A DNA stretch of 64,000 nucleotides, taken from assembly GCA_964023275.1 (NCBI GenBank), contig OZ029929.1:3475844-3539843 (forward strand), in the 5' to 3' direction. Positions within the stretch are counted from its first letter, which is position 1. Each line of letters opens with the position of its first letter. This document shows positions 52,301 through 58,300 of this stretch, one piece after another. A program made the position numbers and the translations under genes. Origin of the DNA: Norana najaformis. Its lineage: Eukaryota; Annelida; Clitellata; Crassiclitellata; Hormogastridae. Below the pieces are notes generated by a model, which had not been told where the DNA came from, searched no databases, and saw only the letters and a list, made by a program, of their open reading frames with translations.

Positions 52301-55300
52301 CAGCATCTGGGTCTATCTGGGCATTTCGCTTCATCGCATTATATGCTAAAAAGTTAGGTTTAAGTTAATTTTTTCTGTAACATAACCTTAGCCCCAGAAA
52401 CGCCTGGAAACCCTGAAGGCCCTGGTGGGCCCATTTGTCCAATATTTCCAGGTGAACCCGGCTGACCATCAGATCCGCGAAGTCCCTGTAACAAAATAAC
52501 GCCGTAATAAGAAATCATTCAATTATTACAAATCTTATAGGAAATCATTGAACGAGTCAACAGCGACGATAATAATGCTTAACAGCATATCGTTTGGCAA
52601 TAGTACACTTCATATTTTTTAATTATTACAATAAGTTCGATTGCTATTTATATGAATTTTTGTAGAAAGTTATGTAATATGGATAATTGTGTAAGTCAAT
52701 AAAATGCCTATAAAATTAACATTAATATTCATAATAATTAAAAATAATTATTTTTGCAGTATAAATACTAACTGGAACACCTTCTCTTCCATCGCTGCCT
52801 CTTTCACCGGGACTTCCTCTTTGACCCTTTAAAGAAAAATACTTTAATGAAAACAGCGAAGTGGATAATCAAAAAGTGTCATTGATGCGACGATTTTACT
52901 CCGAACTAGTCGCAATAAAATTTTTAGTTAAATTATTTGTCCAGCGGTCACGCTAATTAATTTAAACAAATTTTTATTACGCTATGTTATGTTATCTTGC
53001 TATGCTATATTATATTATATTATTATATTTACTATTGTATTGTATTGTATTAATTATATTATATTAATTATATTAATTATATTTATATTATATTATATTA
53101 TATTATATTATATTATATTATATTATATTATATTATATTATATTATATTATATTATATTATATTATATTATATTATATTATATTATATTATATTATATTA
53201 TATTATATTATATTATATTATATAATATTATATTATATTATATTATATTATATTATATTATATTATATTATATTATATTATATTATATTATATTATATTA
53301 TATTATATTATATTATTATATTTACTATTGTATTGTATTGTGTTGTGTTGTGTTGTGTTATGTTATGTTGTGTTATGTTATGTTGTGTTATGTTCTGTTC
53401 TGTTATGTTATGTTCTGTTATGTTCTGTTCTGTTGTGTTATGTTATGTTATGTTATGTTATGTTATGTTATGTTCTGTTCTGTTATGTTATGTTATATTA
53501 TGTTCTGTTATGTTCTTTTATGTTCTGTTCTGTTATGTTATATCACTGGATCACAACGATTTTGCTACTGAAAGTAATGCATGTGCCTTATATTGATTCA
53601 AATGTGCTGATTTAAAAATATGAAGTCAGAATCTGCCCAGCACGTCTAGATTTTAAGTTATGCATGCATTCAAGTAATGACGTAAGGACTCGTTTTCGGT
53701 TATGTCTGTACATTCTGTTGTATGTGTCTCCACGAATGGTGCCAGTGATACGTGCATGCCTGCAAGTGTCGCCTGAAATATTCCTAACAGCAAGCCAGCA
53801 GCAGCCGCTAGACATGATTGGGCATGTCAGCGAGCTGACGTCAGCATCAATACCAGTATATAAGGCGAGATTGCGTAGAACGAAGGTGAAGTTTTCTTAT
53901 ATAGCTGTAGCTAGTGTGTGAGATTCAATTTTGAAATGAATAGGCGAGGCTGTGTTAACCATCCAGACAATTTTTGCTATGTTTGTGGTAAATATACTCT
54001 TTGTGACCAGCGCAAGAAGTTAACTAAGAGAGTGATGATTGCTTACAAGTATTATTTTGGATGTCAAATCGGAGACCAGGATAAAAGTTGGGCACCTCAT
54101 GTCTGCTGCACCGTGTGCTACTCTGGGCTTACACAGTGGTTGAATGGCAAAAGGAATTCAATGCCGTTTACTGTGTCTATGGTGTGGCGCAAGCCAAGAA
54201 ATCATCATGCAGACTGTTATTTCTGCATTACTAAAGTTGCTGGATTTTCAAAGAAAAATAAGTCTAAAATTCGTTTATCCTGATTGCGATTCCGCTCTAA
54301 AGCCAGTGCCGCATGATGAAGAGAATCCAGTACCATTTCCGCCTGCTGCGGGTGCTGATGAAACGGACAGTTCTGAAGGTAATACAGAAGATGACGTTAC
54401 TGTTTATGAATCCAGTGATCAAGATTTGGAAGAGGGTAGACCGCATTTGATAAGGTAAGGTGAGTTAGATGATCTGGTGAGGGACCTATCTTTGTCAAAG
54501 GAGAAATCTGAACTGTTAGCCTCCAGACTAGGGGAGTGGAACTTGCTTCAAAAAGGTACCACAGCATCACACTTACGTTATCGTCACAAACAGTTAGCTA
54601 CATATTATAAACTGGAAAATGTTATCTGTTTCTGTACTGACGTGAACGGTCTCGTGCTGAATTTAGGTTTTGAATACGTTCCTGATCAGTGGAGACTGTT
54701 CATAGATTCCAGCCAAGCCAGCTTGAAAGCTGTGTTGGTGCACAATGGTAACGAAAAGCCGTCTGTTCCTATAGCCCACGCTGTAGGCCTCAAAGAGACA
54801 TATGATTCAATGAAACTCATTTTGAAAGTGATCAACTACTCAGACCACAAATGGAACATCTGTGCGGATCTCAAAGTGGTAGCACTTATTCTAGGCCTAC
54901 AGCTGGGGTACACAAAACATATGTGCTTTTTGTGCTTGTGGAACAGTCGTGATGACAGCAACCATTACAAAGTGAAACTGTGGCCTCCTAGATCTGAGCA
55001 CATTGTTGGTCGGCACAACGTGCAACACGAACCATTGGTTGTTCCATTGAAAGTGTACTTACCACCACTTCACATTAAACTGGGCCTCATGAGGAATTTC
55101 GTAGTGGCAATGGATCGTACTGGACAAGGTTTCCAGTATCTGAGAGATAAATTTGGAGCCGTCAAAACTGATGCTATACTGAAGGCTGGAATTTTTACTG
55201 GGCCAGAAATCCGCGAACTAATGCGTGATACTGTATTTAGAACCAAGCTCAACCCACTGGAATTTGCCGCTTGGGATGCATGTACGTTGGTGGTGCAAAA

Positions 55301-58300
55301 CTTCATTGGGAATCACCGAGCTGACAACTATGCTGAACTCGTTAGCAACATGCTAACAGCATATAAGCAACTCGGCTGCCGGATGTCACTAAAAATACAT
55401 TTCTTACATTCCCATCTTGATTTTTTCCCACCAAACTTGGGTGATGTAAGCGATGAGCATGGAGAGAGATTCCATGAAGACATATCCACCTTTGAAGCAA
55501 GATATCAGGGCCATTGCAATTCCAACATGATGGGCGATTACTGCTGGTTTCGGCAGCGGGCAACAGCGGCCACTCACAAGCGCAAGAGCAAGTGTCTAAA
55601 GCACTTTTGAACTCGTATAGAGTTAAGCTAGAGACAAAATTTCGAAATGTATGCTTTCATCTGAGTAACATACATATATTTATATTACATTTTAAAACAA
55701 ATTTTAATTTCAAGTTATAAAAGAATAACATTTTGTTTCTTGTTATGAATACTCTGAGTTTGCATAATTACACAGTTATAAGGAAATACTAGTTCTGTAA
55801 AGAGTTTGCATAATTATTAGCGATTATTATTTATATTTATATTATTTATTTATTTATATTTATTTATATATATTTATATATATATGTATAATATATATAT
55901 TATATATATAAATATATATATATATTATTAATAATAATTATATAAATATATATATATATTTATTATTAATAATAATTATATAAATATATATATATATTTA
56001 TATTATTAATAATAATTATTATTGCATAATTATTGCATAATTATGTATGCTGCATATCTCAAGATCCTGACGTGCTACACAAAATCTGACTTCAGATTTG
56101 GAATCAGCAGATTCGATTTAGTGTAGTACACATAACATATGCCTAGTAGCAGGCATTTTTCGTGTGATCCAGTGTATTATATTTTATATCATATCATATC
56201 ATATCATATCATATCATATCATATCATATCATATCAATCATATCATATCATATCATATCATATCATATCATATCATATCATATCATAGCATATCATACCA
56301 TACCATACCATACCATACCATACCATACCATACCATACCAATCAATCATATCATATCATATCATATCAATCATATTATATTATAGTAATATCCGATATGC
56401 AGAATATTTACAATTGATCCTGACGGTCCATGAGGTCCAGGTGATCCATTGTTGCCCTTTAAACAAAATTGTAGTTTCCATTAATTTCCATTAAAAATCC
56501 TCAAGTATTATGTGATTCTAAAGCACCAACATTATAGTGTAATAATGAAAAATATCCATCCGTTAAATATTTGGTAAAAGTTTGTTAAATTTGTTTTTTC
56601 TATGAATATATTTCAATGTGCACGCAACTTTTTTGCGGTTGCTGAGCGGACTCTGCAATGGGTGCTTCAGTCATTAAAGCAACTGAATTTGGTTCCGACG
56701 TAAGCTGGCAAGTTAACGGAAAATCCTGTAAAATATGCTGCCAGTGACCAGAACTTTGCATTTGTCCATTGCATGCGTAAAGTCCAAGACCGGGAACGAT
56801 ATGCTATATAACATATATTATAACATATAACATAAAACATTAAATAACATATCTACTATAACATATAGGAGCTTTAATTTTACTAGGTAACTATATAAAT
56901 ACAGGACTTAAATAATAATCTTGTATTAAGAAAAACACAAATATCGAAATATCTCACTCTTTCTCCTGGTCTTCCGGTGTCTCCCTTCAGTCCAGCTGAT
57001 CCTGGTAAACCCTACGTTTGAAAAAAAACACATGATCCTGGTAAACCCTACGATTGAATAAAAACGTACTAGTAATTAGAAAAATTCACCCATTGTTTGA
57101 TTAAAAACACTACGCATTCTGTAAAAAACGATACAAACACGTACTCCCGCGGTAGTATTGTGTTTGACTTTACTTACTCTGTAGCCTTTTAGGCCGGGGA
57201 ATCCTGGCATTCCAGAAGATCCGGGTGCACCCTGCAGCAAAAAATTATGTAAAATTACAAATAATTCATGTGGTTTTTTCTTTCGTTTTCCTAAATTTGC
57301 TAAATAGAGCTATATTTTGTTACCAACTGTCTGCATCTGTTTGTTCTTCTTAGTGTCTCGGCATTTCTCTCACCTTAACATTTTAAGTTGTCTTTATCCA
57401 CCAAGTCTGGTGGCGCTATCATATTTCACCGGTTCTGATTCCACTGGCACGTCAAAATTAGAAATCTTATGATTTTTAAAGAAATTTATGATGAAAATAC
57501 TTCTGAGTCTTCAATATGTTCTGTAGATGATATGAAATTAATGCTAAAATTAAATTAATGCTAAAATTAAATTAATGCTAGATATAATTAATCGGTTCTG
57601 ATAAACTTGGTGTAAAATGTATATTAAGTAAGATACCAGTTAAATTGCAATTTTAATTGCAAGCTTGACCACAAGTTTTATTAAATATGAAACTATAAAT
57701 AATCTAAATAGATTTCTGAATATGTTAAAAAATTGTTATAATAATCTACGGAAGTGCTCAATAATTCGTTAAACTTACAGCAGGACCAGGCGGTCCGATC
57801 GGCCCAGTTTCACCGTCGCGGCCATCATTTCCCTTAATGTATTAAAAAACATTCATAGGAACTTCATATGCGTATTATTTGTACGTGTTTAATAATAAGA
57901 ATTTTAAGAATGTATTGTATATGCGTACTGTATATGCATTATAAAAATATGTAGTATATAGTGAATAATTTAATGAATTTGATTTGCATTAGAATACGCG
58001 CAATTAAATAAAATTCATCGTCACTTGTGGAAAGGAAATTCATTACCAGTGTTACCACGTTCCAAGGCCGACATTGCATATGTAACATGAAAGAAAGTCA
58101 ATGTGATGACACATCAAGGCTCCAATGGGCTTCTCTAATTGTTGATTTAATGAAATTTTACTAGCCATTAGATAAAAATATGCACATTTGAATTCATACT
58201 TACATCTTTTCCTGGAACTCCTGGTGAACCTGGAGGACCACGAACACCCGGCGGTCCCTAAAATCATGTTATAGAGTAAAATCTACTCAATCTACACTAT

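Follow-up and report, generated by a model that had tools for sequence, protein, structure and literature searches.

In a 64,000-nucleotide stretch of DNA from the annelid Norana najaformis (GenBank assembly GCA_964023275.1, contig OZ029929.1, forward-strand positions 3,475,844 to 3,539,843; hereafter the window), we characterized two broken DNA transposons of Chapaev3 type, element 1 at 53544–56174 and element 2 at 1673–4008, both on the plus strand. Element 1 spans 2631 bp and is bounded by terminal inverted repeats (TIRs) at 53544–53670 (left, plus strand) and 56050–56174 (right, minus strand). Inverted repeats of approximately 125 bp had been described at this position in an initial annotation, and they were borne out by gapped local alignment of 53530–53720 with the reverse complement of 55991–56190, which scored 109, compared with a best score of 61 in 1000 letter-pair shuffles. 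The terminal 11-mer of the left TIR (53544–53554) is followed by a spacer of 9 nucleotides and an inner box GCTACT (53564–53569); in the right TIR the reverse complement of the inner box lies at 56145–56150, with a spacer of 13 nucleotides. The element is flanked by the left and right copies of a 3-bp target duplication, TAT, at 53541–53543 and 56175–56177. Long pentanucleotide arrays border element 1 on both sides (53006–53501 and 56186–56384).

The coding region of element 1 is split into pieces on the plus strand. The N-terminal piece (53936–54283) begins at the Met of MNRRGCVN within a frame at 53915–54283 and contains a Cys/His cluster, a candidate Chapa zinc finger. The middle piece lies in the next frame and is terminated by a stop (54144–54458), and the third piece (54459–55610) encodes 383 amino acids with a candidate D-D-E core and C(2)C, LH, and H(4)H motifs. 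Two coding lesions had been reported, and both are present: a frame change between 53915–54283 and 54144–54458, and a stop at 54456–54458. The candidate catalytic residues are a first D in FIDSS (54705–54707), a second D in ADLK (54867–54869), and two E residues in SDEHGERFH (55455–55466). The C(2)C motif is CFLC (54924–54935), the LH motif lies in PPLHI (55068–55073), and the H(4)H motif is H-FLHS-H (55398–55415). The landmark motifs described previously, SDEHGERFH among them, occur in the frame 54459–55610, with the acidic residues at the stated positions D54705, D54867, E55455, and E55464. Element 1 is 97% identical at the nucleotide level over 2278 bp to a sister copy elsewhere in the genome (L049), from which an AT-rich repeat insertion of approximately 200 bp near the right end of element 1 (55822–56021) is absent.

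Element 2 belongs to the same group and was missed by the initial annotation. A translated search of the window revealed a second gene at approximately 2671–3782 that is 54% identical to the 383-amino acid piece of element 1. The broken transposase gene as a whole occupies 2123–3797 on the plus strand, in pieces in three frames, with an open C-terminal piece at 3081–3794. Inverted repeats that start with CACTGG were found at 1668–1781 and 4015–3890, and the TIRs were placed at 1673–1781 (left, plus strand, CACTGGTCAACA) and 3890–4008 (right, CACTGGACAACA on the minus strand). Element 2 is 98% identical at the nucleotide level to a copy with an open frame (L066). The existence of copies without the ends of element 1 had been named as an observation that would speak against a transposon; the diverged element 2 carries ends of the same kind. 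This element sits between two opposed, diverged copies of one repeat that bears open reading frames, at 47–1697 (plus strand) and 4526–5370 (minus strand), which were apparent as inverted repeats at 161–420/5375–5117 and 646–1001/4886–4532 with 57–60% identity. Four frames tried in this flanking repeat had no Pfam match, and our guess is that it is possibly a non-LTR (long terminal repeat) retroelement remnant.

Searching of the host genome (608 Mb, 17 contigs) with the element ends, as had been proposed, collected sister copies and made target duplications readable. With the left end of element 1 as query, at least 40 matches at 98–100% identity were scored (413 unverified first-look candidates), and with its protein piece at least 107, which were 93–97% identical apart from the window itself (5673 first-look candidates). 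For the C-terminal piece of element 2, there were at least 150 scored matches, all 99–100% identical (4963 first-look candidates), many of them with open frames of approximately 569 codons. We refer to the match set of element 1 as family 1 and to that of element 2 as family 2. From family 1 we took 50 loci (L013–L062), seven of which were dropped for a missing end (L014, L021, L022, L027, L034, L041, and L045); the 43 both-ended rows, two of which represent the same place, correspond to 42 distinct copies including that in the window. A third Chapaev3-type family is represented by one copy (L099, G000 C1:42305790–42308098) with CACAGG ends and a 618-amino acid Met frame. The sequence CACTAGG was considered as the left end of family 3 and rejected, with the boundary search placing the end at CACAGG, 24 nucleotides further in. 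Family 4 comprises a decayed set (L071–L078) and two open pieces (L100 and L101), taken as one family, and its ends were read from decayed copies only (five left and seven right). The transposases of families 1, 2, and 3 are 51–54% identical to one another, and the family-4 pieces L100 and L101 are 43–50% identical to those of the other families. With the patterns and queries tried, no relatives were found in viral contigs, GTDB genome contigs, phages, or plasmids; four pattern matches yielded no convincing relative (best E value, 0.028).

The ends are precise across copies. Termini of the form CACTGG..CCAGTG were present in 39 (left) and 40 (right) of the 42 distinct family-1 copies and in all seven family-2 copies read whole, and those of family 3 are CACAGG..CCTGTG. 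The exact ends assigned to element 1, CACTGGATCACA and TGTGATCCAGTG, were upheld, each recurring in 38 of the 42 distinct copies read at both ends; exact 12-letter ends were likewise found in 7/7 family-2 copies read whole. Lengths are also uniform, at 2376–2428 bp for family 1 (with the exception of the window copy at 2631 bp and L061 at 2847 bp), 2352–2356 bp for family 2, and 2309 bp for the single family-3 copy. Median pairwise nucleotide divergence was 2.0% for 40 copies of family 1 and 0.7% for 7 copies of family 2. Intact relatives have a single uninterrupted frame, of 557 amino acids in family 1, 563 in family 2, and 618, with an upstream extension, in family 3. Open Met frames of at least 540 amino acids were found at 16 of 49 distinct family-1 places, at eight places in family 2, and at one in family 3 (L013–L070 and L099); these counts give no estimate of the intact fraction, given that loci of families 2 and 3 were selected for the length of their frames, and 29 of the 49 family-1 places for being best protein matches.

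To describe residue conservation, we used an alignment (A5) of 32 rows, consisting of nine full-length sequences and 23 pieces, with counts made only over rows that have a letter at the position. The candidate catalytic residues were conserved in the order D, D, E, with the first D in 12/16 rows, the second in 16/19, E507 in 16/18, and E510 in 13/16. The cysteines of the C(2)C motif (CFLC) were present in 18/20 and 14/20 rows, the Leu and His of the LH motif in 16/17 and 14/17, and the two His residues of H(4)H in 17/18 each, with the middle His of HFLHSH found in 9/18. In the N-terminal cluster, conservation was 9/10 for C6 and C14, 9/9 for C17, C58, and C61, 8/9 for H55, 14/14 for C94, and 12/12 for C97. 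The Cys/His-rich N-terminal part is a candidate Chapa zinc finger, a domain that occurs in Chapaev, Chapaev3, and RAG1, according to part of a published account (PMC4411706).

A structure model predicted from a single sequence was worthless (pLDDT, or predicted local distance difference test score, of 33), whereas a model of the L049 protein based on A5 had a mean pLDDT of 59.7. The latter model contains strands at residues 252–258, 262–269, and 277–283, a helix at 289–298, a strand at 307–310, a helical stretch, and a helix at 501–522. In this order of beta1-beta2-beta3-alpha-beta4, D257 (the first D) ends beta1, D311 (the second D) lies just after beta4, and E507 and E510 lie in the late helix. 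Such placing of D, D, and E is that of RNase H-like transposases. The best Foldseek match of the model was the ISCth4 transposase (E value, 0.01), and other matches included terminase nucleases, the RNase H domains of YqgF and UvrC, many sugar kinases with an actin-like fold, and some proteins that appear unrelated. The model is consistent with an RNase H core, although it is only weakly RNase H-like and no proof of one.

With regard to target duplications, 37 of the 42 distinct family-1 copies (38 of 43 rows) showed an exact 3-bp duplication. Among these 37, T was first in 36, A or T was in the middle in 36, and A was last in 33; an A preceded the left duplication in 34 and a T followed the right one in all 37. 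The single family-3 copy has TTA on both sides. In family 4, the 3-bp flanks agree in two of four both-ended decayed copies (TTA in L072 and TAA in L078) but not in L075 or L077. Family 2 is younger than family 1, yet its duplications are mixed (L065, L066, L068, L069, L070, L085, L087, L093, and the window copy). One or two extra flank letters would fit seven of nine inexact family-2 copies, compared with a mean of 3.7 in a cross-paired control, and three of five inexact family-1 copies, compared with 2.8; such extra letters are at best a weak explanation for the inexact family-2 duplications.

Taken together, these features indicate that elements 1 and 2 very probably belong to the Chapaev3 group (CMC/CMCT clade) of cut-and-paste transposons, as defective copies of autonomous members. 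The view that element 1 is a TIR-bounded DNA element whose Cys/His-rich protein with a D-D-E core is a transposase was thus sustained, with the D, D, and E that had been singled out conserved in diverged families. In those parts of the study by Zhang and colleagues (PMC4079192) on which we draw, Chapaev transposons are described as having CAC..GTG termini, and Chapaev3 elements as having TWA duplications between A and T and a transposase with C(2)C, LH, and H(4)H motifs. The same parts give sizes of 2451–2455 bp for Merrow of lampreys and 2289–2291 bp for several Garfield elements, and proteins of approximately 554–562 amino acids encoded mostly by one exon. We therefore file the elements as new families of the known group Chapaev3, given that they match the features testable here, with reservations on family 2.

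Several points weigh against this assignment. Membership rests on motifs, ends, and target duplication rather than on a profile match or a phylogeny that includes named Chapaev3 proteins. No Pfam family matched at E values up to 1, and, with three proteins searched at E values up to 10, the sole match was Retrotrans_gag (0.12) for one protein. No PDB sequence matched, including in a profile search with three families. A single family may contribute several, non-independent rows to the A5 counts, and decayed pieces are among the rows. The RNase H fold suggested in the initial annotation is matched by the order of predicted elements, but confidence in the model is modest: pLDDT was <50 at residues 323–361, which hold the C(2)C motif, and at 491–508, which hold H493 and E507. 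Foldseek gave no match at an E value of ≤0.001 for this model, and neither RAG1 nor Transib was among the best 50 of 999 matches. In addition, the duplication of element 1 itself is TAT, not TWA, and an exact 3-bp duplication was found in only 4 of 13 both-ended family-2 copies, the window copy included (left out were L063, whose left end is missing, and 5 of 10 end-pairs with one end outside the short stretch taken).

Chapaev3 membership set by published descriptions rather than by a tree with named proteins, together with the mixed target duplications of family 2, would also suit a CMC/CMCT transposon near but outside Chapaev3, in an animal lineage of its own, distinct from EnSpm, Chapaev, and Chapaev3. 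We consider such a placement improbable, given that TWA between A and T, LH plus H(4)H, size, and the single exon all match Chapaev3 as portrayed in the published excerpts. More improbable still is an undescribed superfamily with 8-bp duplications, which by target duplication would be hAT-, P-, or Zisupton-like. The initial annotation had pointed in this direction with a possible 8-bp duplication, and the absence of any Pfam or PDB match would fit. However, the outer flanks of element 1, TGTTATAT and TATTATAT, match at only seven of eight letters, inside pentanucleotide repeats, and approximately 0.1% of nearby pairs match equally well; given that such arrays flank both sides, the near match is weak evidence. 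Among sister copies, none of the 43 rows had an exact 8-bp duplication (mean identity at 8 bp, 0.30), compared with 38 of 43 at 3 bp, so that the 8-bp duplication can be set aside. Moreover, C(2)C and H(3-4)H between the second D and E constitute the CMCT signature, as stated in part of a recent report (PMC12730594). The proposed poorly described superfamily is unneeded, with termini, target duplication, motifs, size, and single exon all fitting published Chapaev3. That the copies belong to a host multi-copy or domesticated gene family with incidental repeats, as their many long open frames might suggest, is scarcely credible: matches are spread over many contigs with precise ends and 3-bp duplications, many copies have stops or lack a full frame, and the ends and duplications rule out this reading for these families, with single-copy domesticated relatives possibly existing elsewhere.

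Within the Chapaev3 assignment, the two ends of the elements are unequally spaced. In 31 of the 42 family-1 copies, the terminal 11-mer is separated from an inner box G[CT]TACT by 9 nucleotides at the left end and 19 at the right. Left/right spacers of 9/18 (three copies), 9/20 (two copies), and 9/13 (window copy) also occur, and in the other five copies one of the two ends yielded no box. The right spacer of 13 in the window copy compares with one of 19 in 33 of 42 copies. For family 2, the spacers are 9/19 in seven of eight copies, including the window copy, and 9/17 in the other. Between families 1 and 2, the spacer letters agree at only 4/9 (left) and 4/19 (right) positions, and the terminal 11-mers at 8/11 (left) and 9/11 (right). 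In family 3, the distance to a shared ATTTTTTTCTTC box is 6 nucleotides on the left versus 16 on the right, and the right-end stretch was matched without gaps in 40/40 scored copies (113 candidates). The right spacer is thus 10 nucleotides longer in each of families 1–3, a difference of approximately one turn of the DNA helix.

Family 4 shows the opposite arrangement. Counted from the element start to a box [TC]AGT[AT]AG, the distance was 38, 36, 36, 39, and 38 on 5/5 left ends and 29, 28, 29, 29, and 29 on five of seven right ends, two of these five starting with CAA and CAT rather than CAC; of the remaining two right ends, one gave 25 and one was without a CA start. The left distance is longer by 8–10 nucleotides in the four copies with both ends. 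These comparisons draw on families from one genome, with copies within a family not independent, and the inner boxes were chosen by eye from alignments, that of families 3 and 4 differing from that of families 1 and 2.

Families 1–3 may share their longer right spacer by descent. Counted from a 7-nucleotide terminal motif, the spacers of families 1 and 2 become 13 and 23, but the nearness of these values to 12/23 carries no weight, given that the end of the terminal motif is the analyst's choice. The sections of PMC8355894 used here indicate that, RAG aside, 12/23 asymmetry has been recorded for some Transib elements only, and ProtoRAG ends are given as 27/31 in a partial reading of the text of PMC8289069. 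A literature search, mostly outside subscription papers and Repbase Reports, found no published report of Chapaev with asymmetric ends, and the unequal spacing in these Chapaev3-type families looks new. It is conceivable that Chapaev3 transposases need two ends that differ by approximately one helical turn, in the manner of the RAG signals with spacers of 12 and 23, an idea that we hold tentatively and do not yet favor. If it is true, one-turn end asymmetry would be a broader and more ancient trait of the CMCT clade, extending beyond RAG and some Transibs; if functional, the asymmetry would bear on how the 12/23 rule in V(D)J recombination arose.

The ends, the 3-bp duplication, the motifs, the open frames of sister copies, and the young copy families were observed directly, and enzymatic activity, fold, zinc-finger role, and end pairing are inferred. 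In the most likely mechanism, a multimeric transposase would bind both ends at their inner parts, perhaps via the zinc finger, and would pair the CACTGG-type ends, with the CAC ends placed in the D-D-E sites, as the motifs suggest. The enzyme would then cut next to CAC, and the excised element would be joined to a 3-bp staggered target, A-TWA-T, with generation of a TWA duplication. The window copies have no intact frame and could be moved in trans, given that the genome contains relatives with open frames.

Placement of this protein family, which has no Pfam match, in Chapaev3 means that its copies in this genome can be treated as transposons and not as host genes. Given that they are young and include many open frames, the families are also promising candidates for an active Chapaev3 system; among the literature matches listed, none was by its title an assay of Chapaev activity.

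Other repeats in the window include two near-palindromes that resemble miniature inverted-repeat transposable elements, at 9837–9917 (91% self-complementary) and 51216–51348 (79%), as well as an inverted-repeat pair at 14610–14973 and 15208–15536 that is 75% identical over 380 columns.

Among known systems, the Chapaev3 elements Merrow, Garfield, and Conan, as far as the excerpts of PMC4079192 describe them, share with the present families CAC..GTG termini, TWA duplications between A and T, the C(2)C, LH, and H(4)H motifs, a size of approximately 2.3–2.45 kb, and a transposase of approximately 560 amino acids. Merrow and Garfield have two exons, whereas the families described here have one, like most Chapaev3 elements, and the unequal end spacing of our families is not mentioned for Chapaev3 in the excerpts of that study. 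CACTA/EnSpm elements, from what partial sources tell of them, share CAC-starting ends, a 3-bp target duplication, and the C(2)C and H(3-4)H motifs, but the present proteins match no Pfam transposase model, and TWA between A and T and the LH motif are features given for Chapaev3 and Chapaev that distinguish our families from CACTA/EnSpm. The CMC/CMCT clade, with Chapaev3, is a distant relative of Transib and of RAG1, the antibody-gene shuffling enzyme. Target duplications of Transib are 5 bp. Those of ProtoRAG are also given as 5 bp in part of its description (PMC8289069), compared with 3 bp here, and the families here have no sequence match to PDB entries. In the partial accounts at hand, Transib and RAG1 resemble our families in a D-D-E core that carries C(2)C and H(3-4)H. 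Their ends also start with CAC, and pairs of RAG recombination signal sequences, as well as some Transib elements, likewise have unequally spaced ends (PMC8355894, in part).

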